From: Phyllobacterium sp. YR531
GTDB lineage: Bacteria > Pseudomonadota > Alphaproteobacteria > Rhizobiales > Rhizobiaceae
Direction of reading: 5' to 3'
Length of the DNA stretch: 64,000 bases
Assembly (NCBI RefSeq): GCF_000282595.1
Contig: NZ_AKIZ01000019.1
Span: 62,001 to 126,000 of the forward strand
In this document: positions 1-19,810 of the stretch, piece by piece
How positions within the stretch are numbered: the stretch's first letter is position 1
Layout: every line of letters begins with the position of its first letter
Notes under the pieces: model-generated
What the model was told of the DNA's origin: nothing
Databases searched by the model: none
What the model saw: only the letters and a program-made list of their open reading frames with translations
Made by a program: the position numbers and the translations under genes

Positions 1-474
1 GGCTGCCGGTTCCAGCAGATGCCGATAATGATCCAGATCGTGGATATCGCCTTCGCTGGCAGCGATCAGCACTATATCCGCATCGGTGCCGTTGGCGGTG
101 CGCTCAAGCGCAAGGCCATCCAACGGCGATGTATCACCATCACGGCTGATGAGCAGGCAACGCGTCGTGTGTTTTGCAGCCGTGGATTCAGCGGCCAAAA
201 TCTGCCATGCCACCTCGCCCGATGTGAGAAACCAGTCCCAGCTTGCCGGATCAAAACCCAGCTTCGCCAGACGCCGGTCGTTTTCGGCAGAACGCTTTCC
301 GGAGTTGGAGAGGATGACAATGCGCGCGCCAGTCTGCTTCAGCGCGGCAAGGGTTGCCGCAGCTTCCGGGTAAGGGCCGCGACCATCGCGGAGCACGCCG
401 AACTGGTCAATCAGAAAGGCATCGAAATACCCTTGAAGGTCACGCAGGCCGGATATGTGTTTTGGGATCTTCAT
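1..474 (-). CDS. HAD-superfamily class IIA hydrolase (TIGR01459-like), partial at left edge
   Basis: Only the N-terminal 158 or so residues are present; the C-terminus lies beyond position 1. The reading frame starts with an ATG at 474 that overlaps the stop of the upstream kinase gene as ATGA. Near residue 20 the protein reads LIDQFGVLRDG, the HAD motif I nucleophile Asp in the form seen in the TIGR01459 branch of class IIA phosphatases, where the usual second Asp is an aromatic residue. It then shows ILSNSGKR, the motif II Ser region. Such enzymes hydrolyse phosphate esters of small metabolites. As last visible gene of the carbohydrate operon it may recycle or detoxify a phosphorylated intermediate; that role is inferred from context only. 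Confidence 0.75.
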   Translation of the reverse strand, partial: MKIPKHISGLRDLQGYFDAFLIDQFGVLRDGRGPYPEAAATLAALKQTGARIVILSNSGKRSAENDRRLAKLGFDPASWDWFLTSGEVAWQILAAESTAAKHTTRCLLISRDGDTSPLDGLALERTANGTDADIVLIAASEGDIHDLDHYRHLLEPAA

Positions 475-1751
475 AAAAGACCTGCCGCTTTCGCACCCAT
501 GATAGCAAGCCGTGCCGTGCCGGATGCAGCTTCCTCGGACAGGACTGACGGCATGGAAACACCAAGCTTACGTGCGCGGATTGCCGACCAGACCTTGTTT
601 TTCGCTCCACCGCCAACGCTTCGGACAGAGCGAAGCTTTGGCGCGCCAAGTTCCGCCAGCCTGCTATAGGCAAGCTGCTCGACATTTGCGATGCCCTCGA
701 AGATTGCCTTCAGAAATTGTGCATCATCATCGGGACGCGGCTGCATGCGCGGCTTCATTGCCGGGTCGTTCTCCGGAAAGCGTTCGCCATCCCTGACCAG
801 TGGATAGTAATCCAGACCTGTATCCGTCTTTGGGTCCATGGCGGAGGATAGTTGTTCGATCCGGCCATTATCAAAATAATGGGCAAGTACGTTGCCGCCC
901 GTGTTGGATGCTCCCCCGGCCAGCCACATATCGCCAATGCGGTGACTGTAGAGCCCGAACTCCGGCGCAAAAAGCGGATGATCCGAGAGCATCTTGACGG
1001 TTAGTGTTGTGCCAAGTGCACTGACGCCATCCCCGGGCTTGTCAGCGCCTGTTGCCAGAAAGGATGCACAGCCATCCGTGGTTCCGGCAACAATGAGAAC
1101 CGACGGGGGGAGATCAAAGGCGGCCGCAGTTTTTGGGGAAATGGTGGATATCGGCACGCCGGCTGGAAGGACATGCGGTAGCATTTCCATATGCGCTCCG
1201 GTATTGCCGATCCATGTGGGCCAGCGCCGGGCCACAGGATCATAACCGGTTTTCAGCGCGTTGTTTTCGTCGGAAACATCGTAAAGGCCGGTGAAATGTC
1301 CCGCCAGCCAATCGGCCTGGTGTATGATATGCGAGACGTTACCGATGCACTGGAAATGCAGAAGCTTGGCGAGGCCGGATGTGGCACCATGGGCGGCACT
1401 GGTGGCTGGCGCATAGGCCGCTACCGCATCAAGAATTGCGCTATCCTCCACCGGGTCATTATACATTAGTGGTTCAGCCAAAGGCTCACCCGAGGAATTG
1501 ACCGGCAGGACAGTCCCGGAAGTGCCGTCTATGCTGATGGCGCGAACCTGTTTGCGATCAATCTGCTCCAGCACCTGCGAAAGTGCCGACTGCACGGCAG
1601 ACCACCAGCCCGCCGGATCACGATGATTTGCCGAGAAGGCGTCAAGGCGTGCTGCACCGCTGGCGCGAATATCGAATGAGCCGGTCATCGCCACGGCACG
1701 TGCGCCGGAGGTGCCAATATCGATCCCGATGAACAGCGCCTCTTTCGTCAT
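471..1751 (-). CDS. FGGY-family carbohydrate kinase, compact form
   Basis: A 426-residue sugar kinase of the FGGY/ASKHA fold. The N-terminal phosphate-binding loop reads GIDIGTSGARAV at residues 9-20. A later AGTTDGCASF segment carries the likely catalytic Asp, and GGGAKNKVW near the C-terminus is the adenosine motif. It is 60-90 residues shorter than typical xylulo-, glycerol- or erythritol kinases. Similarly compact FGGY proteins include D-ribulose kinases, so a pentulose or related ketose is a reasonable guess, not a demonstrated substrate. It overlaps the aldolase gene upstream by ATGA (1748-1751) and the HAD gene downstream the same way, so translation is probably coupled. It is the second kinase of the operon. 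Confidence 0.85.
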   Translation of the reverse strand: MTKEALFIGIDIGTSGARAVAMTGSFDIRASGAARLDAFSANHRDPAGWWSAVQSALSQVLEQIDRKQVRAISIDGTSGTVLPVNSSGEPLAEPLMYNDPVEDSAILDAVAAYAPATSAAHGATSGLAKLLHFQCIGNVSHIIHQADWLAGHFTGLYDVSDENNALKTGYDPVARRWPTWIGNTGAHMEMLPHVLPAGVPISTISPKTAAAFDLPPSVLIVAGTTDGCASFLATGADKPGDGVSALGTTLTVKMLSDHPLFAPEFGLYSHRIGDMWLAGGASNTGGNVLAHYFDNGRIEQLSSAMDPKTDTGLDYYPLVRDGERFPENDPAMKPRMQPRPDDDAQFLKAIFEGIANVEQLAYSRLAELGAPKLRSVRSVGGGAKNKVWSAIRARKLGVSMPSVLSEEAASGTARLAIMGAKAAGLL

Positions 1752-2797
1752 TGCAATGCCTGCCCTGCGCGGTTGAGTGTCTGCCGATATTTCTCGGCGT
1801 CCCAGCCAAGCAGCTCGGCATTCTCCTCATCTGTCAGATAATTAAGGCGCGTGCCTTGCGGAATGCGGGAGGTCACGTCCGCAAGGCAACGCGCCATGGC
1901 AAGTGCACCTGATGTTGCTTCTTTCAACACCAGAACACCCTTGCCGGGGAACAGGATGGCGGGCGGCAGCGCCATGCCGTCTTCCAGTTTTTCTTCGATT
2001 GTCAGGGCAGTATCCAAAGGCGCTGCAATGACCGAGCCCTTGCCGAGAAAAATGACATGATCCGGGTACAGACTTCCGCCCGCTGCGATGCGGCAACTGG
2101 CAAGATCGGTCGCTACCCTGTGGATCGCAACATCATCCGGAAGTTTATACTGGCTGTTGACTGCAAGCCGCTGCAGCGCGGCAATATCCGTGACTGGCGC
2201 TTGACGCGGAGCAATCGAAAGAAGTTTCGAAATCTGAGCCAGCAACGCTTCCGCTTCATCGACAGTTTCCGCCGCAACAGCAAGCCCATGGTTGCCAAGA
2301 ACAAGCACTGACGTGTCATCTTCGAGACGTTCCGCTATGGCTCGGGCCAGTGGCAGTCCGGGACGGGCATAGGGCACGAAGGCGTGGGGAATATCGCCAA
2401 GACGTGAGGCAACCAGCGCTGCTGCATCTGTCTGAACGGCGAGCGCGATGGTCTCGACACAATGGACATGCACAACCACTTTTTGCGGCATCAGTGCATG
2501 GACGGTGGTTTCGATCGAAGGGCGCAAACCGGAGGGATTGCTTTCAGCAATCACATAGTCCTGCGCTTTTTCGGCGGAAGGGTCAAAACGCGCCAGTGCG
2601 TCAAGCAGAGGATCAAGCGCGACCGGCACCATGATGTCGGCGTTGCGGGCATTTTTCAGCCAGAGCCCGGATGCCTTGATCCACAGCGTGCCACCCTCCT
2701 TGATGGAGGTATTGCCACCGGCCGCCTGCACCAGAGCCGGGTCGGCACCGATGCGGGCAGAAAGATCGAGAAGGGCTTCGAACTCTGCGCTTCTCAT
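1748..2797 (-). CDS. Class II aldolase/adducin-family protein (long form)
   Basis: A 349-residue class II aldolase domain protein when started at the ATG at 2797, which overlaps the stop of the upstream dehydrogenase gene as ATGA. A longer in-frame reading to 2911 lies inside that gene and is rejected. AAGGNTSIKE at residues 25-34 is the phosphate/loop motif of the family. E96, the HVH pair H110/H112 and H170 in LGNHGL fit the catalytic Glu and three metal-ligand His of class II aldolases. It resembles the aldolase half of the bifunctional rhamnulose-1-phosphate aldolase/dehydrogenases but lacks the dehydrogenase half. Probable role: retro-aldol cleavage or epimerisation of a phosphorylated ketose. 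Substrate unknown. Confidence 0.82.
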   Translation of the reverse strand: MRSAEFEALLDLSARIGADPALVQAAGGNTSIKEGGTLWIKASGLWLKNARNADIMVPVALDPLLDALARFDPSAEKAQDYVIAESNPSGLRPSIETTVHALMPQKVVVHVHCVETIALAVQTDAAALVASRLGDIPHAFVPYARPGLPLARAIAERLEDDTSVLVLGNHGLAVAAETVDEAEALLAQISKLLSIAPRQAPVTDIAALQRLAVNSQYKLPDDVAIHRVATDLASCRIAAGGSLYPDHVIFLGKGSVIAAPLDTALTIEEKLEDGMALPPAILFPGKGVLVLKEATSGALAMARCLADVTSRIPQGTRLNYLTDEENAELLGWDAEKYRQTLNRAGQALQ

Positions 2798-4308
2798 GCC
2801 GCCACCTGCTGACGTGTCCACCAATTGATGAAACTTTGCCGCTGCTCCTCGGTCATGTGCAGACCGTGCTTCGTGCGTCGCTCCAGAATATCCTGAGGTT
2901 GAAGCGCCCATTCGGTGTCACGGAGAAATTGCGCTTCGCGTTCGTACAGCAGTTTGCTGAAGGCAGCGCCAAGGTCGGCGAGCGATTGTGCAGAGCCAAG
3001 TAAGTCGTGCATGCGGGTGCCATAAAGCCGGGCATAGTGTTTGGCGAGATCAAAAGGCAGCCATGGATATCTGGCCCGCACATCGCCGAGAAACTGTTCG
3101 AAATCCGCATTGGCCATATCACCGCCAGGAAGATGCGACTTTGCTGTCCAGCCCGGGCGCATATCCGGAAAAAAGGTTTTCAGGCGATCAAGCGCATGTT
3201 CGGAAAGCTTGCGGAATGTGGTGATCTTACCGCCGAAAACCGAAAGCAGCGGCGCCTTGTCATTCTCAGCATCAACCTCAAAAATATAATCGCGGGTGAC
3301 GGCACTGGGGTTTTCCGCACTATCATCATAGAGAGGTCGCACGCCGGAAAAGCTGTGCACTATGTCGCTGGCAACGAGTTGCTGCTTGAAGTAGCGATTT
3401 ACGGATTTCAGCAGATAATCGATTTCATTGCTGTCCGCGGCGACATCTTCGGGGCGACCATCATAAGGAATGTCAGTTGTGCCAATCAGAGCCAGATCAT
3501 TTTCATAAGGGTTGATGAAGATCACACGCTTGTCCGGATTCTGCACCAGATAAGCCTGCCTCCCCTCCCAGAATTTGGGCACGATAATATGGCTGCCTTT
3601 GACCAGCCGGACGCTGCGGCTGGAATTCATGCCCGCCACGCGGCGGATAATATCATTGACCCATGGACCGGCAGTGTTGACCACACAGCGGGCTTTGACA
3701 ATTGTCTTTGCTCCGGAAATCGTATCGGTCATTTCCACTACCCAGAGCCCCGCTTCGCGTCGGATGGAACTGCATGCAGTGCGCGTGTGGATTTCAGCGC
3801 CACGACTGGCAGCGTCAAGGGCGTTCAAAAGCACAAGCCGCGCATCATCCACCCAACAATCGGAATATTCAAACGCCTTGCCATACTCATCTTTTAGCGG
3901 TGCACCTTCCGGTGCCCTCTTCAAGTTCAGTGTGCGTGTACCCGGCAAACGTTTGCGCCCGCCAAGATTGTCGTAGAGAAACAGGCCAAGACGAACGAGC
4001 CAAGCCGGGCGGTCCGCCGGATTATGCGGAAGGACAAAACGCATCGGCCATATGATATGCGGTGCGGATTCCAGCAGCACTTCGCGCTCAATCAGAGCCT
4101 CGCGAACCAGCCGAAATTCGTAATATTCGAGATAGCGAAGGCCACCATGGACAAGCTTGCCGGAACGCGAACTCGTGCCCTGCGCCAAGTCATCCTTTTC
4201 GCACAGGATCACCGACAGTCCGCGTCCTGCTGCATCGCGGGCTATGCCAGCGCCATTGACGCCACCACCGATAATAAAGAGGTCAAATATGCATGTTTCT
4301 GCGTTCAA
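2794..4308 (-). CDS. FAD-dependent glycerol-3-phosphate-type dehydrogenase (GlpD/EryB-like)
   Basis: A 504-residue flavoprotein of the GlpD family. The FAD Rossmann motif GGGVNGAG is at residues 14-21, followed by GTSSRSGKLVHGGLRYLE, the conserved GlpD signature, and a VNTAGPWV motif. The C-terminal domain ends in WWTRQQ. The family oxidises sn-glycerol-3-phosphate or, in EryB, erythritol phosphate, passing electrons to quinone at the membrane. Here it sits between two aldolase genes and downstream of an EryA-like kinase, so it probably oxidises a phosphorylated polyol to a ketose phosphate. The best start is a TTG at 4308 overlapping the aldolase stop as TTGA, because no in-frame ATG precedes the FAD motif. 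Confidence 0.85.
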   Translation of the reverse strand: MNAETCIFDLFIIGGGVNGAGIARDAAGRGLSVILCEKDDLAQGTSSRSGKLVHGGLRYLEYYEFRLVREALIEREVLLESAPHIIWPMRFVLPHNPADRPAWLVRLGLFLYDNLGGRKRLPGTRTLNLKRAPEGAPLKDEYGKAFEYSDCWVDDARLVLLNALDAASRGAEIHTRTACSSIRREAGLWVVEMTDTISGAKTIVKARCVVNTAGPWVNDIIRRVAGMNSSRSVRLVKGSHIIVPKFWEGRQAYLVQNPDKRVIFINPYENDLALIGTTDIPYDGRPEDVAADSNEIDYLLKSVNRYFKQQLVASDIVHSFSGVRPLYDDSAENPSAVTRDYIFEVDAENDKAPLLSVFGGKITTFRKLSEHALDRLKTFFPDMRPGWTAKSHLPGGDMANADFEQFLGDVRARYPWLPFDLAKHYARLYGTRMHDLLGSAQSLADLGAAFSKLLYEREAQFLRDTEWALQPQDILERRTKHGLHMTEEQRQSFINWWTRQQVAA

Positions 4309-4979
4309 TGTTTTGCCTCCTGCTGTGCAGGCTTGTCCTGAAGGCCGTAGCTGGCAAAGCCACGGCGGACGCCTTCAATTTCTTCGGGCGGCAGAACAAC
4401 CGCTCCACCCAAAAGCAGCGCATGATAATATTGCTTGGCAATTGTTTCCAACTCGACAGCTGCCCACATGGCTTTTTCCAGGCTTCCGCCCGTTGCAATC
4501 ATGCCATGATTGGCCATGAGGCAGGCCGTGCGATCTTTCAATGCCTTCAACACATTGTCGGAAAGCTCTTTGGTACCGTAGCGCGCATAATCACATAAGC
4601 GCACATCATTGCCGCCAAATGCGGCGACCATGTAATGACAGGCCGGAATGGACTTGTGAGCAATGGCAAGGATCGTCGAGAAAGTCGCATGGGTGTGGAC
4701 CACAGCATTTATTTCCGGACGCGTCCGCAGAATATCCAGATGAAACCGCCATTCAGTGGAAGGTTTTTTTGGGCCTTCCCATGAGCCATATTCGCCATCG
4801 AGCGGCATTGAGGCAATCATGTCCGGCGTCATTTCGTCATAGGGCACTGCTGACGGTGTGATGAGCATGCGGTTTTCAAAACGCACGCTGATGTTTCCTG
4901 ATGTACCCTGATTGATGCCCGAAGCATTCATCTGACGGCAGTGATCGATAATCGATTGTCTAAGCTCAAGTTCTGGCAT
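4305..4979 (-). CDS. Class II aldolase, L-fuculose-phosphate aldolase-like
   Basis: A 224-residue aldolase of FucA length and layout. E76, H95, H97 (in VHTHATFS) and H158 (in ANHGMI) correspond to the catalytic Glu73 and zinc ligands His92, His94 and His155 of E. coli FucA with a constant offset of three. QGTSGNIS at 24-31 is the phosphate-binding loop. The family cleaves ketose-1-phosphates to DHAP plus an aldehyde. All catalytic residues are present, so activity is expected, but the substrate cannot be read from sequence. A GAGG Shine-Dalgarno precedes the ATG, 10 bases after the dehydrogenase stop at 4990. It overlaps the GlpD-like gene downstream by four bases. Confidence 0.85.
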   Translation of the reverse strand: MPELELRQSIIDHCRQMNASGINQGTSGNISVRFENRMLITPSAVPYDEMTPDMIASMPLDGEYGSWEGPKKPSTEWRFHLDILRTRPEINAVVHTHATFSTILAIAHKSIPACHYMVAAFGGNDVRLCDYARYGTKELSDNVLKALKDRTACLMANHGMIATGGSLEKAMWAAVELETIAKQYYHALLLGGAVVLPPEEIEGVRRGFASYGLQDKPAQQEAKH

Positions 4980-4989
4980 GATGGCGGCC

Positions 4990-6030
4990 TCAGCAGGGAT
5001 TGACCGGCGGCAAGCCGGCTATATAGCGGCGCACTTCTTCGGCAGCCATCTCAGCGGCATAGGTGACAGTGCGCACTGATGCTCCAGCGATATGCGGCGT
5101 GAGCGTTACATTCGGCAATTGCAGAAGTGGCCAGTCAGCTGGCACGGGTTCAACCGCGAAGGTTTCGAGCATGGCACTGCCGAGATGACCATTGGTCAGC
5201 GCTTCGTAAAGTGCATCATAATCAACCAAGGGGCCACGCGCCGTGTTCACGAAAATGGCACCCTGCTTCATCTTGGCAAACGCCTCGGCATTCATGATGC
5301 CCTTGGTTTCGTCCGTCACGCGCGGATGCAGCGTAACCACATCGGAGCGTGACAAAAGATGATCGAAAGCCACCAATTCGACACCTGCGTTACGGTCGTC
5401 AGCCGAGAGCTGCACATAGGGATCGTAAACAATGACCTTCGTGCCAAAAGCCCGAAGCAGGCGCACCACTTTTGCGCCTATATTGCCATAACCGACAACG
5501 CCGACTGTCATCTCGGAAAGCTCGCGGCCTGTTTTGTCGGCACGGTACAGCTCGCCGCGCCATTCACCCTTGCGCAAGGACTCATGACCGCTGCGGATAA
5601 GGCGTGTTTCAGCCAGAATGGCACCGAGCGTAAACTCGGCAACCGCGCTGGCATTGCGGCCGGGCGTATTGACGACAAGCACACCGGCATTGCGCGCCGC
5701 CTTCATGTCAATATTCACCGGACCGCCACGGGAAACAGCAACGAATTTCAAGGCAGGCAGGCGTTCGAGCATGCCTGCAGACATCGGGGCAAGCTGGGTA
5801 ATGAAAAGCTCGGCATCTCCTATAAACTCGACAATCTCGTCCGGGTCACCAAGATATTCCTTCAGGCCATCCATGCCCTTGACCGCATAGCCGTGCTCCA
5901 TCGGCATATCCGGCCAGGGTTGCTGCAGCGTGCGGATATCATGCTCGTCGCCACATAGCTCCACGATCTTTTCCTGAAACACTTCCGGGAGCATGAACCG
6001 ATCGCCGATGATGGCTATTTTTTTGGTCAT
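4990..6030 (-). CDS. NAD-dependent D-2-hydroxyacid dehydrogenase
   Basis: A 346-residue member of the D-isomer-specific 2-hydroxyacid dehydrogenases (phosphoglycerate dehydrogenase-like). The NAD motif GYGNIG is at 180-185 with D203 ending the second strand (VYDPY), which favours NAD over NADP. R265 (NTARGPLVD), E294 and H313 (TPHIAGAS) form the catalytic set. There is no C-terminal ACT regulatory domain, so it is not a standard SerA. In this operon it may interconvert a 2-oxo acid or lactaldehyde-derived acid produced after aldol cleavage, or act on a phosphorylated aldonate. An AGGAAAAT element precedes the ATG, 48 bases after the kinase stop. Confidence 0.85.
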   Translation of the reverse strand: MTKKIAIIGDRFMLPEVFQEKIVELCGDEHDIRTLQQPWPDMPMEHGYAVKGMDGLKEYLGDPDEIVEFIGDAELFITQLAPMSAGMLERLPALKFVAVSRGGPVNIDMKAARNAGVLVVNTPGRNASAVAEFTLGAILAETRLIRSGHESLRKGEWRGELYRADKTGRELSEMTVGVVGYGNIGAKVVRLLRAFGTKVIVYDPYVQLSADDRNAGVELVAFDHLLSRSDVVTLHPRVTDETKGIMNAEAFAKMKQGAIFVNTARGPLVDYDALYEALTNGHLGSAMLETFAVEPVPADWPLLQLPNVTLTPHIAGASVRTVTYAAEMAAEEVRRYIAGLPPVNPC

Positions 6031-6078
6031 TGCAATTTTCCTATTCGTCGCTTGCCGCTATTATCGGGCTGGCGTATT

Positions 6079-7632
6079 TCATTTTTCCGGCGTTGCCATG
6101 GTGTGCCACGTATCCTGCAAAGCCAGCCTTGACTGGCGATAGGCCGGAAAGGCTTCTTCATAGATCGCGGATAGTTCCACATCGATGGGTTCAGGCGTAC
6201 GCTGGGAGGGCGTTACCCAATCCTTCACGCAGTCGGCCATGGAGCCATAGATTCCTAGAGAAACAGCTGCGATCATGGCTGTGCCAGCTGCTCCAGCCTC
6301 TTCACGTTCGCTGGTCTGGATAGAAGCACCCAAGGCACCGCCCAGTATCTTACGCAATGAAGCGCTCCGGGCCGCGCCACCTGTTACTCGGACACGTTCT
6401 GGCAAAGGTCCCATAGCGGCATAACAATCGCGGGCGGCGAGTGCCAGGCCGTCAAAAACTGCACGGGCCATATCGCCAAATCCATGGCTGGTTGAAAGCC
6501 CGATGAACGAGGCGCGAGCCGTTGCATCAACGAACGGGCCCCGCTCTCCCGCGTCGGAAATATAAGGGTGGTAAATCACCGAAGCCGCCTTGGCTTCAGA
6601 AAGCCAAGTGTCCATATGGGCGAGCAGTTCCGGCTTGGATTTTTCCACACCGATGCTTTTGAACAGATTACCCGCAACCGACAATATCCAGTCAATGTTC
6701 AGGGTCGCAGCCATGTTGGACTGCATCTGCGCATAGACGCCGGGAATTGGCATGCACATGGTATAGCCCGTCAGATCGCGATTAAGCTCCACATCATCCG
6801 GGCTGCTTGCCAGACGCATATGCATACCGGTCGAACCGATAATCGAACAACCTGTGCTTGTCCCGGGTTCGTATAACCCGGCACCAAGTGCGGTGCAGGC
6901 GACATCTACATAACCGAGAACGACGGGCGTGCCTTCAAGCAATCCGGTCAGCCGCGCGGCGTCCATGTCCAGCTTGTGATGGGTGGTCGCGCCATCGACG
7001 ATTTCAGGCAGCAGGTATTTGAGTTTTTCCAACCCGAGAAACTCAATCACACTGTCCGAATAGCTGCGGGTACGGAAATCGCCAAAAGTAAAAACCGCTT
7101 CCGATGGATCGGTGGCCCGCTTGCCGGTAAGCTTGAAATAGAGCCAGTCCTTGCAATGAAAGGACGTGGTTGCGCCGGAGTAAAGTTCCGGAGCCTCATC
7201 CATCATCCAGCGCAGTTGCGAACCTTGCTGGCATGCAGCCAGACCACTGCCTGTATGGGTGAAGCGGCCAAGATCGCCACGATCTTTACGCAGATTGTCG
7301 ACCGTATCGCCCGCACGGGCATCAAGCCATAGCCAGCCCTTGCCCACGGCCTCACCATTCCTGTCTATCATCCACGTGCCATCGCCCTGCCCTGTCACGG
7401 AGACGGCCACAGTGCGGCCAGCAAGGTTTTCGACTTTTGCGGCGAGATCGATCAGCGTCTTTGCGGTATCCGCCCAGGTACGGGCAAGATCCTGCACGGC
7501 CCCTGCCCGCCCAACAGTTTCATAGTTGTTCGGTGTTGAGGCCACGGCAATCTGGCGACCGGACAGGTCAAAAGCCACCGACTTGATGATGGAAGTGCCA
7601 GCGTCGATCCCTATGAGGATATCGCGTGTCAT
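6079..7632 (-). CDS. FGGY-family carbohydrate kinase, EryA (erythritol kinase)-like
   Basis: A 517-residue full-length FGGY kinase. It shows ILIGIDAGTSIIKSVAFDL at the N-terminus, VTGQGDGTW, LGYVDVACTALGAG with the likely catalytic Asp, and VTGGAARS near residue 425. The N-terminus and several internal blocks resemble Brucella erythritol kinase EryA, but I cannot assign erythritol as substrate. This locus has no EryC-type isomerase gene. The ATG at 7632 overlaps the upstream ATPase stop (TGATG); a GTG at 7635 in frame is an alternative giving one more residue. It probably performs the first phosphorylation of the imported substrate. Confidence 0.85.
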   Translation of the reverse strand: MTRDILIGIDAGTSIIKSVAFDLSGRQIAVASTPNNYETVGRAGAVQDLARTWADTAKTLIDLAAKVENLAGRTVAVSVTGQGDGTWMIDRNGEAVGKGWLWLDARAGDTVDNLRKDRGDLGRFTHTGSGLAACQQGSQLRWMMDEAPELYSGATTSFHCKDWLYFKLTGKRATDPSEAVFTFGDFRTRSYSDSVIEFLGLEKLKYLLPEIVDGATTHHKLDMDAARLTGLLEGTPVVLGYVDVACTALGAGLYEPGTSTGCSIIGSTGMHMRLASSPDDVELNRDLTGYTMCMPIPGVYAQMQSNMAATLNIDWILSVAGNLFKSIGVEKSKPELLAHMDTWLSEAKAASVIYHPYISDAGERGPFVDATARASFIGLSTSHGFGDMARAVFDGLALAARDCYAAMGPLPERVRVTGGAARSASLRKILGGALGASIQTSEREEAGAAGTAMIAAVSLGIYGSMADCVKDWVTPSQRTPEPIDVELSAIYEEAFPAYRQSRLALQDTWHTMATPEK

Positions 7633-8756
7633 CACGCAAGCTCCTGACCATGGCTGACAGCGACGCCGGTTTCGCCATTGAATACATGCAGGCTGGCAGG
7701 ATCGAGGCGAACGGCAATCGTATCGCCAATAGCCACATCAGTCCGGTCGTGCTCAACCAGAACCAGCGAACCACCCGCAAAATCTGCAGCAATATGCGTC
7801 TGATCGCCGAGCCATTGATTGACCGAGACCCGCGCATTGACGCCGCCCTCGCTGCGACGGACCGCATAGGGACGAATGCCGACAACAACCTTTTGATGCT
7901 TGTTCAGCTCTGCCCGAACAGCAGGTGAGAAATCGGAGGCCGCATATTCAAGCTTCACGCCCTGATTGAGACCGAAAGCTATTGCACTCTCGCTTGCGGA
8001 AACGGTCGCCTCGAAGACGTTCATTGGCGGTTCGCCAACGAATGTACCGGTAAACAGATTGGCCGGACGCTCCTTGATCATCTGCGGCGTGTCGAATTGC
8101 TGCAACTGACCGCCTTCCATGACAGCAATGCGATCTGCAAGCGCGTTCGCTTCGGTCTGGTCATGAGTCACCAGGATGGCGGTAAGCCCACGCTCCTTGA
8201 TGTAGTGCTTGATACGACCACGCAGCACCGCCCGCAATTGCGGCTCAAGCTGCCCCATCGGCTCATCCAGTAAATGCAGGTCGGCATCGCGAATAAGAGC
8301 GCGACCTAGCGAAGCGCGCTGCTGCTGCCCACCGGAAATTGAACTCGGGTAGCGGCCGAGAATATCTTCAATCTCCAGAAGCTTGGCGATATAGGCGACT
8401 TTTTCCTCGACTACGGATTGTGAGAGCCTGGAGGATTTCAGCGCGAAGGCGATGTTTTCCTTCACCGTCAAAGGCGGATAAAGCGAGTATCCCTCAAAGG
8501 CCATGGCGACATTTCGCTTTACCGGCGCGAAGGTTTGCACCTCGCGGCCTTTCAGCGAGATCGTACCGCGCGATACAGCTTCAAAGCCCGCCACCATCCG
8601 TAGCGTCGATGTCTTGCCACAGCCGGACGAACCGAGCAGCGCGATGATTTCGCCCTTCTTCACATCCATGCTGACGTTGCGGACCGCGTGGACACCATGG
8701 TCGATAGGTCCATAAAACTTGTCGACGTTTTTGATCAACAGAGCAGTGTCACTCAT
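7632..8756 (-). CDS. ABC transporter ATP-binding protein (catalytically complete partner)
   Basis: A 374-residue ATPase of the MalK/UgpC class with a C-terminal TOBE/OB regulatory region. Walker A GSSGCGKT is at 42-49, signature ISGGQ at 140-144, Walker B HLLDEP with catalytic E165, and H-loop H198 (LVTHDQ). The Q-loop residue is Glu (E88 in AFEGYSLYP) instead of Gln. It is the second of two adjacent ATPase genes. A pair of distinct ATPases with two permeases and a binding protein is the layout of the rhizobial GlpSTPQV glycerol transporter, so a polyol substrate is plausible. Start and stop overlap both neighbours as ATGA or TGATG. Confidence 0.88.
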   Translation of the reverse strand: MSDTALLIKNVDKFYGPIDHGVHAVRNVSMDVKKGEIIALLGSSGCGKTSTLRMVAGFEAVSRGTISLKGREVQTFAPVKRNVAMAFEGYSLYPPLTVKENIAFALKSSRLSQSVVEEKVAYIAKLLEIEDILGRYPSSISGGQQQRASLGRALIRDADLHLLDEPMGQLEPQLRAVLRGRIKHYIKERGLTAILVTHDQTEANALADRIAVMEGGQLQQFDTPQMIKERPANLFTGTFVGEPPMNVFEATVSASESAIAFGLNQGVKLEYAASDFSPAVRAELNKHQKVVVGIRPYAVRRSEGGVNARVSVNQWLGDQTHIAADFAGGSLVLVEHDRTDVAIGDTIAVRLDPASLHVFNGETGVAVSHGQELA

Positions 8757-9865
8757 GCTGCTACTCCCTGCTGTGCTGTACCTGCCTTACGGATGAGTGC
8801 ACCGCTGGCCTTGTCGAAAAGGAACGCGGTCCTGCCATCAATCACGATATGAGCCGGGCCGGATACCGGACCCGGTGTTCCTGCAGGTCGTGAAACCAGC
8901 ACTTCGCGTTTGCCCACAGTCAGCACCAGCGTGACAGTTTTCTCGTTGAGCGGCGTTTCTGCCTCAACCTCGATGGGAACGGCACCTTTCGCGGTATCCT
9001 TGGCGAAACTGATCGATTCGGGTCGAATGCCAATCACGCAAGACTGTCCTGCAACGCTGTCCGGCATGCCCGGCAAAGCAACCCTGACTTTGGAAATCTC
9101 GACATAAACGCCTTCAATGTCTTTTTGCGGCGTCACATCAAGCAGGTTGATCGTCGGGTCACCGAACAGGCTGGCGATCCCGATATCCGCCGGTGCGTTA
9201 TAGATTTCTTCCGGTGTGCCGATCTGGCGGATTTTGCCATTGGCCATAACGGCTATGCGATCACCAAGCGCCATGGCTTCCTTATAGTCCTGCGTCACAT
9301 AGACGACAGTTGCGCCCTGTGAGGCGAGCAGGCGCGGCAGTTCCAGCCGCATCTCAAAACGTAGCTTGGCATCGACATTGCGCAAGGGATCATCAAGCAG
9401 AAGCAGTGGCGGCGAGCCCGCAAGCGCGCGAGCAAGTGCCGTGCGCTGCTTTTGCCCGTTCGACAGCGCTTTGGGATGATGCGACAGCACATGATCAATC
9501 TTGAGCAGCTTCGCCACCTTACCCACACCGGACTTTATGGCGTCGGCCGATGACCGCGTGGCTGTCAAAGGGCTGGCGATATTGTCGTGGGCGCTCATAT
9601 GCGGAAACAGCGCGAAGTTCTGAAACGCCATGCCGATACCGCGATGCTCCGCATCCACATCGGTCATGTCTTCGCCGCCGATGAGGATTTTGCCCTCATC
9701 CGGATCGATCACACCGGCGACGAGACGCAGGAGGACGGTCTTTCCAGCCCCGGAAGGGCCAAACAGAACCAGCGTCTCGCCATTTGCAACATCAAGCGAC
9801 AGATCATCGAGAACCGTATTGGTCTTGTAGCGCTTGACGATATTCCTGAGTTCTAAAGTGGTCAT
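8753..9865 (-). CDS. ABC transporter ATP-binding protein with degenerate catalytic motifs
   Basis: A 370-residue ATPase with Walker A GPSGAGKT at 36-43 and Q82 in the Q-loop. Three normally conserved positions differ: the signature is LSNGQ (134-138) instead of LSGGQ, the Walker B catalytic Glu is Asp (D159 in LLDDP), and the H-loop His is Gln (Q192 in YVTQD). The C-terminal third is a TOBE-type regulatory region. It probably pairs with the neighbouring ATPase to make an asymmetric nucleotide-binding dimer with one hydrolytically weak site. It overlaps that gene by ATGA and lies 4 bases after the permease gene. Confidence 0.88.
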   Translation of the reverse strand: MTTLELRNIVKRYKTNTVLDDLSLDVANGETLVLFGPSGAGKTVLLRLVAGVIDPDEGKILIGGEDMTDVDAEHRGIGMAFQNFALFPHMSAHDNIASPLTATRSSADAIKSGVGKVAKLLKIDHVLSHHPKALSNGQKQRTALARALAGSPPLLLLDDPLRNVDAKLRFEMRLELPRLLASQGATVVYVTQDYKEAMALGDRIAVMANGKIRQIGTPEEIYNAPADIGIASLFGDPTINLLDVTPQKDIEGVYVEISKVRVALPGMPDSVAGQSCVIGIRPESISFAKDTAKGAVPIEVEAETPLNEKTVTLVLTVGKREVLVSRPAGTPGPVSGPAHIVIDGRTAFLFDKASGALIRKAGTAQQGVAA

Positions 9866-9869
9866 ATGA

Positions 9870-10727
9870 TTATCCCTTCACCGCGCCAAGTGACAGGCCT
9901 TCAACGAGGTAACGCTGGGCATAAAGAGCGAGCGCCAGCGTCGGCGTGACCGAAAGCACAATGGCCGAGGCGATCTGGCCGTACTGGATACCTGACGAAG
10001 TGACGAAAGCGAGCGCACCTACTGTGACCGGCTGCTTGTCAGCCGAGGCAAGCACCAGCGCGAAGACGAAATTGTTCCAGGCAAAGATGAAGGCAAGCAG
10101 GCCAGCAGCAGCAATGCCCGGACCAGCAAGCGGCAGAGCGATCTTGCGGAACGTGGCAAACCATGAGTGACCGGCAATGCGATAGGCATATTCGACATCA
10201 GCCGAGATATCTTCGAAGTAGCCGCGTACGATCCAGAGGATCAAAGGCAGGCAGATCAGCTGATAGACCCAGATGAGACCGAAATAAGTATCGGACAGGC
10301 CAAGCCACTGGAAATACTGCGTCAGCGGTAGCAACACCAGAAGCGGTGGCGCAAAGCGGAACGACAAAAGCGTAAACGCAATGTCTTCCGAGCCACGGAA
10401 TTTGTGCCGCGCAAAGGCATAAGCGGCAGGCACGCCAAGCACGAGCGACAGTGCAACCGACGTCACGGAAAGGAAGACGGAATTGCCCAGATTGCGCATG
10501 AAGGCAATATCAAGCGTACCGGCGGATGTAGTCAGCTTGCCTGTAATCAACGCAGCATAGTTGGAAAGTGTCGGCGTGAAAACGATGGATGGCGGTATCT
10601 GCAGGATGGTCTCGTTCGTCTGGAATGACATCAGGAATATCCAGAAGATCGGGAACATGAAGAAGATGACAACCAGCGACAATGCGAGGAAGCGCAGGCT
10701 TTTTTCGAGTGTGGATGTGGTTTCCAT
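9870..10727 (-). CDS. ABC transporter inner-membrane permease (MalG/UgpE type)
   Basis: A 285-residue binding-protein-dependent permease with about six membrane segments. FRKIALPLAGPGIAAAG, the EAA-type cytoplasmic loop that docks on the ATPase, lies in the C-terminal half. The start is placed at the ATG at 10727, preceded by GAGGAGCAC, rather than at a longer in-frame start at 10763 that would run into the upstream permease gene. Ten bases separate it from that gene's stop. It forms the translocation channel together with the other permease. Confidence 0.88.
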   Translation of the reverse strand: METTSTLEKSLRFLALSLVVIFFMFPIFWIFLMSFQTNETILQIPPSIVFTPTLSNYAALITGKLTTSAGTLDIAFMRNLGNSVFLSVTSVALSLVLGVPAAYAFARHKFRGSEDIAFTLLSFRFAPPLLVLLPLTQYFQWLGLSDTYFGLIWVYQLICLPLILWIVRGYFEDISADVEYAYRIAGHSWFATFRKIALPLAGPGIAAAGLLAFIFAWNNFVFALVLASADKQPVTVGALAFVTSSGIQYGQIASAIVLSVTPTLALALYAQRYLVEGLSLGAVKG

Positions 10728-10737
10728 AATGTGCTCC

Positions 10738-11664
10738 TCACGCCTCGCCGCGTGCGCGTTCACGCAGCCGTAGCCAGTTCTTGATGAAGATGTTGGACAG
10801 CAGATAAGTAATGGCCCAAAGGATGACCATCAGTGCCGCTGACCGCCCGACATTCGTCGACTGGAAGAAGTTCAGGTAAGCCTCGACCTGAAACACCGTA
10901 AGTGCATTGCCGGGACCGCCCTGCGTCATCGCATAGATGATGTCGAACTGCTGGATGGAATCGAGCAGGCGGAAAAGCGTTGCGGTGAGGATATAGGGAG
11001 TCAGCATCGGCAGTGTGATGCGGAAGAACACAAAGGTGCGTGGCACACCGTCAAGTGCGGCAGCTTCAAAAGGCTGGGTTGGCAGCGAACGCAAACCGGC
11101 CAGAAGCAGGATCATGATGAACGGCGTATAGACCCAGATATCGACAAGTACGACCGTCAGAAGAGCCGTATCGGGCGACGATGCCCAGCGGAAATTCTGC
11201 AATCCAACCTGATTGGCCAGATAACTGAGAATACCAAAACCCGGGTTGGTCATCAGCTTCCACATCAGTGCAGCAAGCGCCGGCGCTATCATCAGCGGCA
11301 GGAGAAGCATGATCGAAATGAAATTATTGACCCGCGAACGCTTCTGCAAAAGCAGGGCAATGCCCAACCCGAGAAGCAGTTCCAATGTCACGGTGATACC
11401 GGCATAGAGCAACGATATCTTCAGTGTGTTCCAGAAACCCGGGTCATTGAACAGGAAGTTATAATAATTCTCGCCCCAGTTGAACTGGCGGCTCCATGGC
11501 TGACTCAGCCGGTAGCGCTGAAATGAGTAGATGACTGCGGTTACAAACGGAATGAGAATGCCGATGCAGACGAGCAATGCGGGCAAGCTCAGGACATAGG
11601 GCAGCATCTTTCTGCTGATCCTGAACCTTGAAGCCGGCTTTCGGGGAATGGATGGGGAAGCCAA
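10738..11664 (-). CDS. ABC transporter inner-membrane permease (MalF/UgpA type)
   Basis: A permease of about 308 residues with a hydrophobic segment at the N-terminus (YVLSLPALLVCIGILIPF) and five more downstream. FRITLPMLTPYI is the EAA loop. Start choice is open: a TTG at 11664 is preceded at ideal distance by AAGGAG, whereas ATGs at 11697 and 11706 lack a clear ribosome site and would add 11 to 14 residues that include the Shine-Dalgarno itself. The TTG is preferred. The gene is the first after the intercistronic hairpin that follows the binding-protein gene, so its message level may be lower than that of the binding protein. Confidence 0.82.
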   Translation of the reverse strand: MASPSIPRKPASRFRISRKMLPYVLSLPALLVCIGILIPFVTAVIYSFQRYRLSQPWSRQFNWGENYYNFLFNDPGFWNTLKISLLYAGITVTLELLLGLGIALLLQKRSRVNNFISIMLLLPLMIAPALAALMWKLMTNPGFGILSYLANQVGLQNFRWASSPDTALLTVVLVDIWVYTPFIMILLLAGLRSLPTQPFEAAALDGVPRTFVFFRITLPMLTPYILTATLFRLLDSIQQFDIIYAMTQGGPGNALTVFQVEAYLNFFQSTNVGRSAALMVILWAITYLLSNIFIKNWLRLRERARGEA

Positions 11665-11710
11665 TTTAAGCTCCTTATCGTTTAATGAAACACGCATGCC
11701 GCGCACTGGA

Positions 11711-11737
11711 ATACCCGGCGCTCGCAGCGCCGGGTAT
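11711..11737 (-). terminator. Intercistronic stem-loop after the binding-protein gene
   Basis: A perfect 12-base inverted repeat, GC-rich, with a 3-base loop (arms 11711-11722 and 11726-11737). It starts 14 bases past the stop of the solute-binding protein gene and ends before the permease gene. No T-run follows on the minus strand, so it looks like an mRNA-stabilising or partial-termination element rather than a full terminator. Such elements are typical after highly expressed binding-protein genes. Confidence 0.7.
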
Positions 11738-11750
11738 CGACAGAAATGGA

Positions 11751-13193
11751 TCAGCCGAGGCCAGCTTCCTTGAGCTGACGATCAATGCTCTGGGCAAGCT
11801 GGTCCAGCCCCTCATCGATCGGCACTTCCTTGGCAACCATCTTCTGCAATGTCGAAGCCCATTCAGTCGTTACGTCGAAGAACAGCGGCTGCGGTGTGAA
11901 CTTGATGCTTGCACCGGCAGCCGAGGCATCGAACATTTCGACATAGCCCGGATATTTCTTGTTCAGCTTTTCGCGGAACATTTCGTCCTTCCAGATCGAC
12001 TGGCGAACCGGATCAACAAAGTCCATTTTGGTTGCACCGAACAGAGCGTGTTCCGGTCCGGAAGCCCACTGCAGGAAGTACCAGGTAGCATCCTTGTCCT
12101 TCGAGAAGTTGGACATGGCCAGTGACCAGATCCAGATATTCGGTGTTGAGGCCTTGGCTTCCGGATTGGCGGTAAAGGCGGCATAGGAGAGTTTCCCGGC
12201 CATCTTGTTGTCGCCGCCATTCATGAAGTACCCGAGGCAATCGGCATCGAAGATCATGGCTGAAGCACCGGCTCCAAGATCGGTACCGACCTGATACCAG
12301 GTATAGGTAGACCAATCCTTCGGACCGCTTTCCTGAATCATCTGCACCCACTTGGTATGGTATGCCTTTGATTCAGCCGTATTCATTGCTGCCGAAAGCT
12401 TGCCGTCAGCAGAAACATTCAGATCTTTCTGATTGAAGTTGGCATAGCCGGACAGGAAGCCCGGATGGATCGTAGCCCACGAGCGGGAGCCACGTACGCC
12501 GATACCGTAAATGCCGCCAATATCCTTCTGGAGCTTGGCAGATGTCGCGATCATTTCATCAATGTTGCCGGGAACCTGAACACCGGCCTTGTCGAACATT
12601 TCACGGTTATAGGTAATGTTGTTCTGCTCGAATGCCCATGGAATACACCATTGCTTGGCGTCTTCCGAACCGAGCGCGCCGCCGGGAATGCCGTTCCATG
12701 CGCAGGAGTTCTTCACGCCCGGCAGGAAGTCGTTCCAGGCATAATTCGGGTTAGTCTTTTCCGGATCGTTGATCCATTCTTTCAGGTCGGTGATCCAGCC
12801 TGCAGGACCATAGGTCCAGGTCATATATGCGCCGGTCATGAACGCATCATATTCGGTCGAACCAGATGACAGGGCCGCAGTCACCTTGTCAAAATAAACG
12901 TCTTCGGGAAACACGTCATACTTGACGTCAATACCTGTCAAATCCTTGAAATTCTGCAGATTGGCGATCATCGCATCGGCGTAGGGATGCTTGTTCAAGA
13001 GCAGCTTCAAAGACTTGCCGGAATGTTTCTTCCAGTCAAAATCAGCTGCCTGTGCGTTGGTCGACATCATATTCATCAGGGTGCCGGCAGTCGCTGCCGT
13101 AATACCCATCGTTCCGAGACCTTTCAACAGGCCGCGACGATCAACTGATCCGCGCAGGAAAGCGCTGATAAGGTCTTTTTCCTTGTCATGCAT
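11751..13193 (-). CDS. Extracellular solute-binding protein of the ABC importer
   Basis: A 480-residue family 1 periplasmic binding protein. The N-terminus carries DRRGLLKGLG (residues 18-27), then a hydrophobic stretch and a TNAQAAD cleavage region near residues 45-51, which looks like a twin-arginine-type signal with one Arg pair. The mature part shows the GSTEYDAFMTGAY and LGAGASAMIFDAD blocks common in polyol and glycerol-3-phosphate type binding proteins. It delivers substrate to the two permeases. A very strong AAAGGAGGAG ribosome site precedes the ATG, matching the need for excess binding protein. It lies 94 bases downstream of the regulator gene. Confidence 0.88.
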   Translation of the reverse strand: MHDKEKDLISAFLRGSVDRRGLLKGLGTMGITAATAGTLMNMMSTNAQAADFDWKKHSGKSLKLLLNKHPYADAMIANLQNFKDLTGIDVKYDVFPEDVYFDKVTAALSSGSTEYDAFMTGAYMTWTYGPAGWITDLKEWINDPEKTNPNYAWNDFLPGVKNSCAWNGIPGGALGSEDAKQWCIPWAFEQNNITYNREMFDKAGVQVPGNIDEMIATSAKLQKDIGGIYGIGVRGSRSWATIHPGFLSGYANFNQKDLNVSADGKLSAAMNTAESKAYHTKWVQMIQESGPKDWSTYTWYQVGTDLGAGASAMIFDADCLGYFMNGGDNKMAGKLSYAAFTANPEAKASTPNIWIWSLAMSNFSKDKDATWYFLQWASGPEHALFGATKMDFVDPVRQSIWKDEMFREKLNKKYPGYVEMFDASAAGASIKFTPQPLFFDVTTEWASTLQKMVAKEVPIDEGLDQLAQSIDRQLKEAGLG

Positions 13194-13287
13194 TGGTCTT
13201 CTCCTCCTTTATCGGGTATTATGAACCGGATACCCCACCGGTATTTCTCCCAGAATGCGGCCTCCCCGCACCCACCTGCCATTGCTG

Positions 13288-14250
13288 TCAGGTATTGCTA
13301 GCGGCAAGCTGCCGCGCTGTTTTTTCGTCTGTAATCAACCCGTTCAGGCACCGGCTTTCGAGCACCGCGCGGATTGCCCGGACTTTCATGGTGCCACCCG
13401 CCACCGCGATCATTCGCTGGTTCTTCAAATCCTCACGACTCAAGGTAAAGGTGCGATCCGACAGCGTCGTCTGGATCGCCTGTCCGGCATCGTCAAAGAA
13501 ATGCCCAAGCAGCTCGCCGGCTCCCCCTGCCTTCTTGATATCCTCGATCTCGACCTTTTCGATCATGCCCGTGGAAACCAGCGAAGCTTCACGCTCCGCC
13601 GTACCAATACTCACAAGGGAAAGGTTGGCGCTTTTGGCCATGTTGAATATCTCGCGCACGCCACGCTGACTGAAGAGCACATCCATATCCTCGACCGTAT
13701 TGGCGAAGAACGGAACCGGCATGACATAGGCTTCAGCGCCGATACGCTCGGCAAGCCTATGGATCACGTCATGAGGGTTGGCGGAAAACTTGCGGGTCAA
13801 ACCGCCAAGCAGAGAAACGAAACGTACATTGTTGCTGGCTATGCGAGGCAGATAATCAACACAGGCTGCCAGTGTCCGGCCATGCCCCATGCCAATGAGC
13901 AATTCTCCGTCACGCTCAATCTCACGCTTCAGAAACTGTGCTCCGGCGATGCCGAGCGCCTTCAACGGTAATTCTTCCGGATCGAAATCAGGCACGACCT
14001 CGCAATAATCAAGGCCGTAGCGGGTAGACAGTGCCTGTTCCAGCTCCACGCATTCCGAAATTTCACCATCGATATAGACCTTCACCAGCCCATCCTGATT
14101 GGCCTTCATGATGAGTCGGTGGGCTTTGAGGGATGTCAGGCCAAGGCGCTTGGCAACTTCGGATTGGGTGAGACCGCCTGCGTAATGCAACCAGGCAGCG
14201 CGTGCTGCCATGCTGGACTCTTCCTCGCGAAGAGAACTGCCGTTCGCCAT
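13288..14250 (-). CDS. SorC/DeoR-type sugar-binding transcriptional regulator (EryD-like)
   Basis: A 320-residue regulator. The N-terminal helix-turn-helix reads GGLTQSEVAKRLGLTSLKAHR, and the rest is the SorC sugar-phosphate-binding domain of the NagB/RpiA fold with GMGHGRTLAACVDYLPR. The family includes EryD, the erythritol operon regulator, and responds to phosphorylated sugars. The ATG at 14250 has a GGAG site eight bases upstream and is preferred; in-frame starts up to 14313 are possible. As the first gene of the operon it probably regulates its own transcription as well as the transport and catabolic genes. Confidence 0.85.
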   Translation of the reverse strand: MANGSSLREEESSMAARAAWLHYAGGLTQSEVAKRLGLTSLKAHRLIMKANQDGLVKVYIDGEISECVELEQALSTRYGLDYCEVVPDFDPEELPLKALGIAGAQFLKREIERDGELLIGMGHGRTLAACVDYLPRIASNNVRFVSLLGGLTRKFSANPHDVIHRLAERIGAEAYVMPVPFFANTVEDMDVLFSQRGVREIFNMAKSANLSLVSIGTAEREASLVSTGMIEKVEIEDIKKAGGAGELLGHFFDDAGQAIQTTLSDRTFTLSREDLKNQRMIAVAGGTMKVRAIRAVLESRCLNGLITDEKTARQLAASNT

Positions 14251-14581
14251 TGCCTTGTCTCCACCCTGCATGCGTTTTTTGATATTTTTATCTCTTATTG
14301 AAAATAATTTCACGTACTGAAAAATTTGTCAAGCAAGACCGGGATGCTTTCAATGCTCCTGGCGGGTGATCCTGCGCGATGGCTTTTCGGTAAATACGTG
14401 CTGCTTGCCAAAAGTCATGACAATTCACATGCTTGCCGCAATGCAGCAAACCACCAGGCGGCATGTCCGATTGTGAAATCTTTTTGAGGAAAAGTTGGCA
14501 TATGCCCGCGAAAGTGGCGGGTGGCGTCACATTTAAAATGAATTGCCTAAAGTTGGCGGTGAACTCAGTTCCAAGGCCTGA
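14251..14581. other. Intergenic region between sugar operon and guaA operon
   Basis: About 330 bases with no convincing gene. The right part, nearest the regulator, is AT-rich and holds the candidate operator and presumably the promoter of the carbohydrate operon. The rest should contain the end of the guaA transcript; no strong hairpin with a T-run was seen. Confidence 0.5.
14299..14331. promoter_or_regulatory. Candidate operator of the SorC-type regulator
   Basis: An AT-rich stretch upstream of the regulator holds a perfect 5+4+5 inverted repeat, TGAAA-ATAA-TTTCA (14299-14312), and a second related copy TGAAAAATTTGTCA at 14318-14331. Two similar imperfect palindromes about 19 bases apart in front of a regulator gene are consistent with autoregulation. 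The assignment rests on position and symmetry only. Confidence 0.35.
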
Positions 14582-14992
14582 CTATGGTTTGACGCAATCG
14601 AGAATGCTTGTTCGGCAAACAGGCGTTTTCTGACGCTCACCCGGATTGTTCAGCCAAGAATCGTAGGCAAGGCGGAACTCTACATCTTTGTATTGATAGA
14701 CCTTGGCTTGCTTCCCGCTCCTGCTGGCGGCCAAAGCTTGAGGTGTGACCACCAAATGCAAGGCCAGCAATTTGAATACCCACGGCTTGGTGCCCCGATC
14801 TTTCTCGAAGACCTGAACGTGATAGAATGGATCGCCGGTCTGCGGGCTGTTGTAAATGGCGGCCCAACGCACTTTGTGCGGGGTCACCGACAGGACAAGG
14901 TTTTTATCCTGTTCAGCCGCAAAGGCTGTACTGCCCATCCAGAGAAGCAACAGACCGGCACAAGCTCTCAGGCATATCGTCATGCTGCTCAT
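14582..14992 (-). CDS. Small secreted protein of unknown function
   Basis: A 136-residue protein with a clear Sec signal peptide (hydrophobic CAGLLLLWMGSTAFA, cleavage after AFA at about residue 25). The mature part is about 110 residues, rich in aromatic residues and Lys, with two Cys near the C-terminus (CRTSILDC) that could form a disulfide. I do not recognise the family with certainty. It begins 23 bases after guaA on the same strand, so it is probably cotranscribed. A start four codons in (14983) is better placed for a GGGATGA ribosome site and would shorten it slightly. Confidence 0.7.
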   Translation of the reverse strand: MSSMTICLRACAGLLLLWMGSTAFAAEQDKNLVLSVTPHKVRWAAIYNSPQTGDPFYHVQVFEKDRGTKPWVFKLLALHLVVTPQALAASRSGKQAKVYQYKDVEFRLAYDSWLNNPGERQKTPVCRTSILDCVKP

Positions 14993-15015
14993 CCCATATC
15001 AGACGTGGTGAGGTA

Positions 15016-16578: not shown

Positions 16579-16685
16579 GGCGGGCCTTTAAAGCAAATGT
16601 CGAGTCGGCGCAATGGGTTGCCGGAACCTACTGACAAACTGATTCCGATTGTTAACAGAGCGGGTGAAGAGATTGTGGCAAACTG

Positions 16686-17015
16686 TTAGCGCACGGAACG
16701 TTCAAGGGTCGCAACCACCCATTTGTTCAAGCTTACACCGGCGCGTCGAGCAGCACTTGAAATAGCCTTATGCAGAATGGGCTCCGTGCGGACAACAAAT
16801 TGCCCTGAAAATGGCTTCTCTGGTTCTTCGCCGCGCTGCTTGCAAAACTCGAGATAGTCCTCGACAGATTCTGCAAATGCCTTCTTCAACGTTGCTGCTG
16901 ATGCACCCTGAAAAGTAATCACATCACGCAGATTGACAATCTCACCGTGGAATAAATCGGCATCCTCGTCGAATTCAATGACTGCTTCATATCCCTTATA
17001 GTGCATGGTCGTCAT
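16686..17015 (-). CDS. hicB: HicB-family antitoxin
   Basis: A 109-residue antitoxin. The N-terminal half (YEAVIEFDEDADLFHGEIVNL) is the partial RNase-H-like HicB fold, and the C-terminal part (HKAISSAARRAGVSLNKWV) looks like a ribbon-helix-helix or Arc-type DNA-binding segment. It overlaps the toxin gene upstream by ATGA (17012-17015), the standard HicA-first order. It should neutralise the toxin and bind the operon promoter. Confidence 0.88.
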   Translation of the reverse strand: MTTMHYKGYEAVIEFDEDADLFHGEIVNLRDVITFQGASAATLKKAFAESVEDYLEFCKQRGEEPEKPFSGQFVVRTEPILHKAISSAARRAGVSLNKWVVATLERSVR

Positions 17016-17272: not shown

Positions 17273-17277
17273 ATAAT

Positions 17278-17297
17278 AGTATCACTTTTCAGTATCA
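17278..17297. promoter_or_regulatory. Direct repeats upstream of hicA, candidate HicB operator
   Basis: Two identical heptamers AGTATCA at 17278-17284 and 17291-17297, period 13, lie within 25 bases of the hicA ATG in an AT-rich stretch. Their position suits autorepression by HicB. This is inferred from repetition and location. Confidence 0.4.
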
Positions 17298-17322
17298 ATA
17301 AAATAGTGTGTTATTGGAAAAT

Positions 17323-17961: not shown

Positions 17962-17962
17962 T

Positions 17963-18421: not shown

Positions 18422-18459
18422 AGGAACCATCCTGTGAATGACTGCCGCTGGTTGTAGCC

Positions 18460-19749: not shown

Positions 19750-19810
19750 AGGAATTCCTTGTATGCCTTAGAGCTCTTCTACTCTTTCACTGTCGCATAC
19801 ATGGCTGCAG

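Follow-up and report, generated by a model that had tools for sequence, protein, structure and literature searches.

The left 14.3 kb of a 64,000-nucleotide stretch of Phyllobacterium sp. YR531 DNA (contig NZ_AKIZ01000019.1, positions 62,001 to 126,000; hereafter the window) is filled by a minus-strand operon that we identify, with a probability of about 0.94, as the known S. meliloti-type locus for erythritol, ribitol (adonitol) and L-arabitol. The operon is an ordinary member of this published locus, and its pathway is already known. A preliminary description, made from the window alone, had presented the operon as an undescribed pathway without an EryC-type isomerase. Genes for EryC, TpiB and RpiB were found in the same run just past the left edge of the window, and a published 17-gene S. 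meliloti locus agrees with the operon in contents and in pattern of losses, as far as the two can be compared (PMC3599248). The operon looked new because it runs past the window edge, which left its final genes, among them the isomerase held to be absent, out of view. What remains of use is a specific scheme, open to testing enzyme by enzyme, for how the pentitol half of the locus works; the genetics of the locus were published in 2012.

Every gene named in the preliminary description was found in the window, on one strand and tightly spaced, and its view of these genes as a polyol catabolic operon is right. From right to left, the order is a regulator, a binding protein, two permeases, two ATPases, a 518-residue FGGY kinase, a D-2-hydroxyacid dehydrogenase, a FucA-like aldolase, a GlpD-like dehydrogenase, a RhaD-like aldolase, a 426-residue FGGY kinase, and a HAD gene. 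Left of the edge the run continues with the rest of the HAD gene, followed by the eryC, tpiB (eryH-like), and rpiB (eryI-like) genes, at gaps of 6, -4, and 12 bases. The whole run thus comprises 16 genes on one strand, with 10 of the 15 junctions overlapping or no more than 6 bases apart and a widest gap of 94 bases. EryC, present as a single copy in the genome, is 69.5% identical to the R. leguminosarum WSM1325 protein encoded after the kinase and GlpD-like genes (eryABCD order). RpiB scored 252.9 bits on the NCBI model for D-erythrulose-4-phosphate isomerase (NF051858; cut-off 240).

For erythritol, adonitol, and L-arabitol, S. meliloti and S. medicae each have a locus of 17 genes (Geddes, Hausner and Oresnik 2013, PMC3599248, and the 2010 and 2012 work of Geddes that it cites). 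NGR234 was reported to lack only fucA1, M. loti to carry lalA in the locus and a second lalA beside rbtB and rbtC elsewhere, and the Bradyrhizobium type to lack eryC and eryR-tpiB-rpiB (PMC3599248). The same transporter and polyols are named in PMC10433430. The synteny check suggested in the preliminary description gave gene-for-gene matches in S. meliloti 4H41 (L067) and S. medicae (L073), so the novelty falls; a published pathway with the same genes, which that description had named as contrary to its own proposal, exists. In both loci the genes and their order are those of the Phyllobacterium operon, with a DeoR-type EryR added to make 17; the other 16 are shared, in order and strand. Phyllobacterium differs from them in lacking eryR and in having a lumazine synthase paralogue and DhaKL beside rpiB on the other strand. 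This gene arrangement is conserved synteny rather than chance.

The plasmid locus of S. fredii NGR234 (L007) has the 17 genes minus the FucA gene; it shares eryC, tpiB, and rpiB with the Phyllobacterium operon and differs from it in lacking fucA1 and having eryR. The Bradyrhizobium-type loci (L115, L117) share the eryD, mptABCDE, eryA, rbtA, fucA1, and eryB types; unlike in Phyllobacterium, eryC-tpiB-rpiB was not found alongside, and genes of the rbtB and rbtC types are encoded on the opposite strand. Full-length GlpD-like matches in S. meliloti 4H41 comprise one EryB-like gene at 80% identity and others of at most 54%, so that no second candidate locus was seen there. In the NGR234 plasmid record, likewise, a single EryA-like kinase stands out at 75% identity, followed by one at 27%. 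For EryA, EryB, EryC, EryD, the MptA binding protein, TpiB, LalA, RbtA, RbtB, and RbtC, identities to S. meliloti 4H41 lie above the published membership cut-offs (Table 1), the last four proteins being named by elimination. In the EryA tree the Phyllobacterium kinase falls, with support of 100/100, in a 12-row clade with those of S. meliloti, S. medicae, and S. fredii; five forks of the tree are open.

Related loci were surveyed more widely with a profile of six aligned dehydrogenase sequences, which matched 254 relatives in genome contigs; the best 80 were kept, 12 of these were set aside for having less than 8.5 kb on one side, and 68 were counted, with identity floors of our own choice. 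Of the 68 loci, 67 encode the regulator, the complete five-gene transporter, and EryA, with the EryA gene immediately followed by that of the RbtA-type dehydrogenase. The exception (L111) has the dehydrogenase alone, with a 35% aldolase match beside it. EryB was found in 62 loci, EryC in 54, TpiB in 45, the RhaD-like aldolase in 49, and the FucA-like aldolase in 27. The compact kinase (rbtB) and HAD (rbtC) genes each occur in 46 loci, always together and apart in none, and six Mesorhizobium-type loci (e.g. L093) have the RhaD-like aldolase without this pair. As far as the two can be compared, the survey agrees with the published gene contents and losses.

Several points weigh against assignment to the S. 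meliloti-type locus. The EryR gene that the published type has between eryC and tpiB was not found at that position, where the two genes overlap by 4 bases, and the best DeoR protein elsewhere in the genome is only 31% identical to NGR234 EryR. The three R. leguminosarum-type rows sit among mpt-type rows such as Gemmobacter and Zhengella in the EryA tree, so the tree does not separate the two kinds of locus as a whole. The 2-hydroxyacid dehydrogenase, RhaD-like aldolase, compact kinase, and HAD protein were equated with RbtA, LalA, RbtB, and RbtC by elimination, a mapping that rests on gene content, and the steps given below for LalA and RbtBC are ones that we infer. One passage of PMC10433430 has d-arabitol where its other passages and the 2012 title have L-arabitol. 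As to EryR, group 1 of the published classification includes members without it (two Roseobacter and M. ciceri), and EryR is thus not required (PMC3599248); the match list of a near relative (L040) likewise shows tpiB directly after eryC, where its contig ends.

The proposal first made, of an undescribed pathway that takes another substrate and uses ery-like parts but no EryC, would draw on the identity of only about 55% between EryA and the R. leguminosarum kinase that precedes eryB and eryC, and on the five non-ery enzymes added to the set. It is made very improbable by the eryC, tpiB, and rpiB genes directly beyond the window edge, by the gene-for-gene match with the published 17-gene locus of S. 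meliloti and S. medicae, and by the grouping of the window EryA with that of S. meliloti. The same very small chance is given to a locus for erythritol alone, like those of R. leguminosarum and Brucella (eryABCD, eryEFG). Homologues of eryA, eryB, eryC, eryD, tpiB, and rpiB are indeed all present, and the R. leguminosarum locus shares these types; its transporter, however, is of the ribose type (EryEFG), and it has no LalA or RbtABC homologues. The Phyllobacterium operon carries instead a MalFGK-like transporter of the MptABCDE type together with rbtA, lalA, rbtB, and rbtC homologues, genes reported in none of the R. leguminosarum/Brucella-type genomes of PMC3599248.

Other substrates were considered and dropped. 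Autoinducer-2, suggested by LsrR/LsrK-like scores, was rejected on scores under the curated cut-offs and on ery-like synteny. A tetronate or acid-sugar scheme (kinase, dehydrogenase, class II decarboxylase), prompted by the 2-hydroxyacid dehydrogenase, did not hold, the 3-oxo-tetronate-4-phosphate decarboxylase model scoring 112.7 against a cut-off of 250 and the published substrates being polyols. The latter also led us to drop glycerol uptake, which the two-ATPase transporter had brought up.

For the S. meliloti-type locus identified here, MptABCDE would import erythritol, ribitol, and L-arabitol, and EryA would phosphorylate all three. In the erythritol branch, EryA would yield L-erythritol-4-phosphate and EryB L-3-tetrulose-4-phosphate, which EryC, TpiB (EryH), and RpiB (EryI) would turn into D-erythrose-4-phosphate; these steps were shown for Brucella enzymes (PMC5992420, PMC11508834, PMC10190533). 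A Fischer-projection count revealed that, among the seven tetritols and pentitols, erythritol, ribitol, and L-arabitol alone have a right-right end as seen from the phosphate, the orientation of L-erythritol-4-phosphate; this is also the published substrate set of EryA (PMC3599248). D-arabitol would break this stereochemical rule.

For the pentitol branch, the outline envisaged in the preliminary description is reasonable: the substrate would be imported, phosphorylated, oxidised to a ketose phosphate, and split by an aldolase. In this branch, ribitol would be converted to D-ribulose-1-phosphate and L-arabitol to L-xylulose-1-phosphate, because the phosphate would have the same orientation as with erythritol and oxidation would occur at the carbon adjoining the phosphate. 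E. coli FucA cleaves D-ribulose-1-phosphate, and RhaD cleaves L-xylulose-1-phosphate. FucA1 could thus split D-ribulose-1-phosphate, and the RhaD-like LalA could split L-xylulose-1-phosphate, each into dihydroxyacetone phosphate and glycolaldehyde. The best structural relative of FucA1, PDB 1fua, is an L-fuculose-1-phosphate aldolase, the Glu and His positions of which are conserved in the FucA1 alignment; we take the Glu to be catalytic and the His to be metal-binding. Alternatively, RbtC as a phosphatase and RbtB as a D-ribulokinase could make D-ribulose-5-phosphate from D-ribulose-1-phosphate, a route that could replace the FucA1 cleavage and would explain why fucA1 is dispensable. The strict co-occurrence of rbtB and rbtC fits such a phosphatase-kinase pair shifting the phosphate from C1 to C5. 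RbtB conserves in the alignment residues D8, T11, and D221 of SePSK, the three residues tested in that enzyme; SePSK has D-ribulose kinase activity, and AtXK-1, to which RbtB is equally related, shows little (PMC4880283). The literature searched gave no enzyme assignment for the pentitol branch, the 2012 S. meliloti genetic paper lying outside that search.

Judged by its distribution among genomes, RbtA belongs to the pentitol branch, a placement made because it co-occurs with RbtB and because EryC is found in genomes without it. Among 121 genomes drawn from the family, RbtA was present at 70% identity or more in 15, and RbtB occurred in 14 of these 15 compared with 7 of the other 106; EryC was present in 18 of the 121 genomes in the absence of RbtA at this level. 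Four further genomes with RbtA matches of 50-52% were left out of the count, the RbtB match in one of the 21 genomes is interrupted by a stop, and the genomes are related, so that P values serve as a guide only. RbtA may be the dehydrogenase of this branch. Specifically, it could be an NAD-dependent pentitol-phosphate dehydrogenase acting on D-ribitol-1-phosphate, and perhaps on L-arabitol-5-phosphate, to give ketopentose-1-phosphates, after which RbtC and RbtB would move the phosphate from C1 to C5; we regard this activity as unlikely on balance. If true, a family known for 2-hydroxy acids would gain a new activity, and the exchange of phosphate by phosphatase and kinase would supply the pentose phosphate pathway.

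This activity is suggested because RbtA is the only dehydrogenase in operons without eryB. Six of the 68 loci lack eryB (L111, L053, L076, L084, L113, and L116), and the latter five keep eryA, rbtA, lalA, rbtB, and rbtC. In these five, neighbouring recognised genes are never more than 218 bases apart and RbtA is the sole dehydrogenase up to rbtC; a Shinella locus (L005) is alike. Further support comes from a separate R. leguminosarum-type erythritol locus with eryA, eryB, eryC, and eryD in three of the five genomes, and from the rbtB and rbtC types never standing apart; the other two genomes have eryB-eryC-eryR-tpiB-rpiB at another site. Pfam searches of ten open reading frames beyond rbtC in the five loci gave no dehydrogenase domain, these ten having been picked from a longer list, most of them without any Pfam match and possibly not genes. 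Against a pentitol-phosphate dehydrogenase, all five genomes have eryB elsewhere, from where it could act in trans. The Shinella plasmid also has an eryB, at 68%. The retention of eryB without eryC in Bradyrhizobium-type loci points in the same direction.

A better chance, somewhat short of even, is given to RbtA being a glyoxylate or hydroxypyruvate reductase that clears products arising from glycolaldehyde. Residues R265, E294, and H313, which we take to be the usual ones of 2-hydroxyacid dehydrogenases, are conserved in all 80 loci and would fit a carboxylate substrate, and the family normally acts on 2-hydroxy or 2-oxo acids. Such a clearing role is less easily reconciled with the position of the RbtA gene directly after eryA in all but one of the 68 loci, or with the 16 loci that have no aldolase above the identity floors nearby, one of which is L111 with its 35% match.

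The features of the operon are collected in Table 1. The start of LalA is probably the ATG at 2797 (codon 39) rather than that at 2911, because the former gives a 4-base overlap with eryB. Distant PDB relatives of the MptA-type protein include a sorbitol-binding protein (4rya, E 6.4e-14).

Table 1. Genes of the Phyllobacterium operon, from the regulator to the last gene beyond the left edge of the window. Identities are to locus L067 of S. meliloti 4H41; cut-offs are the membership values in PMC3599248.
Gene product	Position in window	Strand	Identity (%)	Published cut-off (%)	Other matches
EryD-type SorC/LsrR-family regulator	13288..14313	-	74	44	LsrR 170.9 bits (below cut-off 486); Sugar-bind 239.8 bits
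MptA-type polyol-binding protein	11751..13193	-	83	56	twin-arginine-like start visible in sequence
ABC permease, one of mptBCDE	10738..11706	-	90		UgpA/MalF family
ABC permease, one of mptBCDE	9870..10763	-	92		MalG family
ABC ATPase, one of mptBCDE	8753..9865	-	79		UgpC/MalK family
ABC ATPase, one of mptBCDE	7632..8756	-	82		UgpC/MalK family
EryA, polyol kinase (FGGY), 518 amino acids	6079..7635	-	74	46	100/100 clade with S. meliloti EryA
RbtA (named by elimination), D-2-hydroxyacid dehydrogenase family	4990..6030	-	83	50	2-Hacid_dh_C E 5.9e-58
FucA1, FucA-type class II aldolase	4305..4979	-	77		best PDB relative 1fua, E 1.1e-57
EryB, GlpD-like polyol-phosphate dehydrogenase	2794..4308	-	80	65	PRK13369 853.3 bits
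LalA (named by elimination), stand-alone RhaD-like class II aldolase	1748..2797	-	75	49	Aldolase_II 74.9 bits; RhaD_aldol-ADH 72.2 bits (below cut-off)
RbtB (named by elimination), D-ribulokinase-like compact FGGY kinase, 426 amino acids	471..1751	-	71	51	PDB relatives AtXK-1 5htr E 8.9e-93, SePSK 5htn E 1.6e-91
RbtC (named by elimination), TIGR01459 HAD phosphatase-like, 280 amino acids in full	1..474 (cut by window edge)	-	67	40	TIGR01459 121.8 bits partial, 245.1 bits full, cut-off 103.75
EryC, xylose-isomerase-like TIM-barrel, 308 amino acids	left of window	-	83	68	
TpiB/EryH-like triose-phosphate isomerase	left of window	-	75	69	
RpiB/EryI-like isomerase	left of window	-	86		

Right of the operon, window positions 14582-21365 carry housekeeping-type genes for GMP synthase, MTA/SAH nucleosidase, TspO, an RsmB-type rRNA methyltransferase, and catalase. 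At the other end, adjoining rpiB on the opposite strand (L014 11132-13285, +), lie a 6,7-dimethyl-8-ribityllumazine synthase paralogue and the DhaK/DhaL subunits of dihydroxyacetone kinase; lumazine synthase was found near 28 and DhaK near 23 of the 80 related loci.

Parts of the locus also occur in other settings. The genes lalA, rbtB, and rbtC also stand together as a unit in sugar operons of other kinds, which encode a DeoR regulator and a kinase as well as a transporter of the sugar/ribose type (L010 9977-13153, L011 9965-13160, L013 9971-13166). In S. meliloti Ak57 (L009, CP090106.1), a copy considered as a plasmid-borne extra was discarded as such, the 3.72 Mb "pSymB" record probably being a mislabelled chromosome, to judge by its size. 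In Paracoccus denitrificans and Cereibacter sphaeroides (L027 8983-12205, L028 8980-12233), a 48-50% relative of RbtA lies in the cluster of a different pathway, with a FucA-like aldolase, an FGGY kinase, three CoA transferases, an acetolactate-synthase-like enzyme, and a molybdoenzyme as neighbours. Paracoccus seriniphilus (L026 10445-13710) has the kinase, 2-hydroxyacid dehydrogenase, and FucA-like aldolase without the rest, beside an arylsulfatase.

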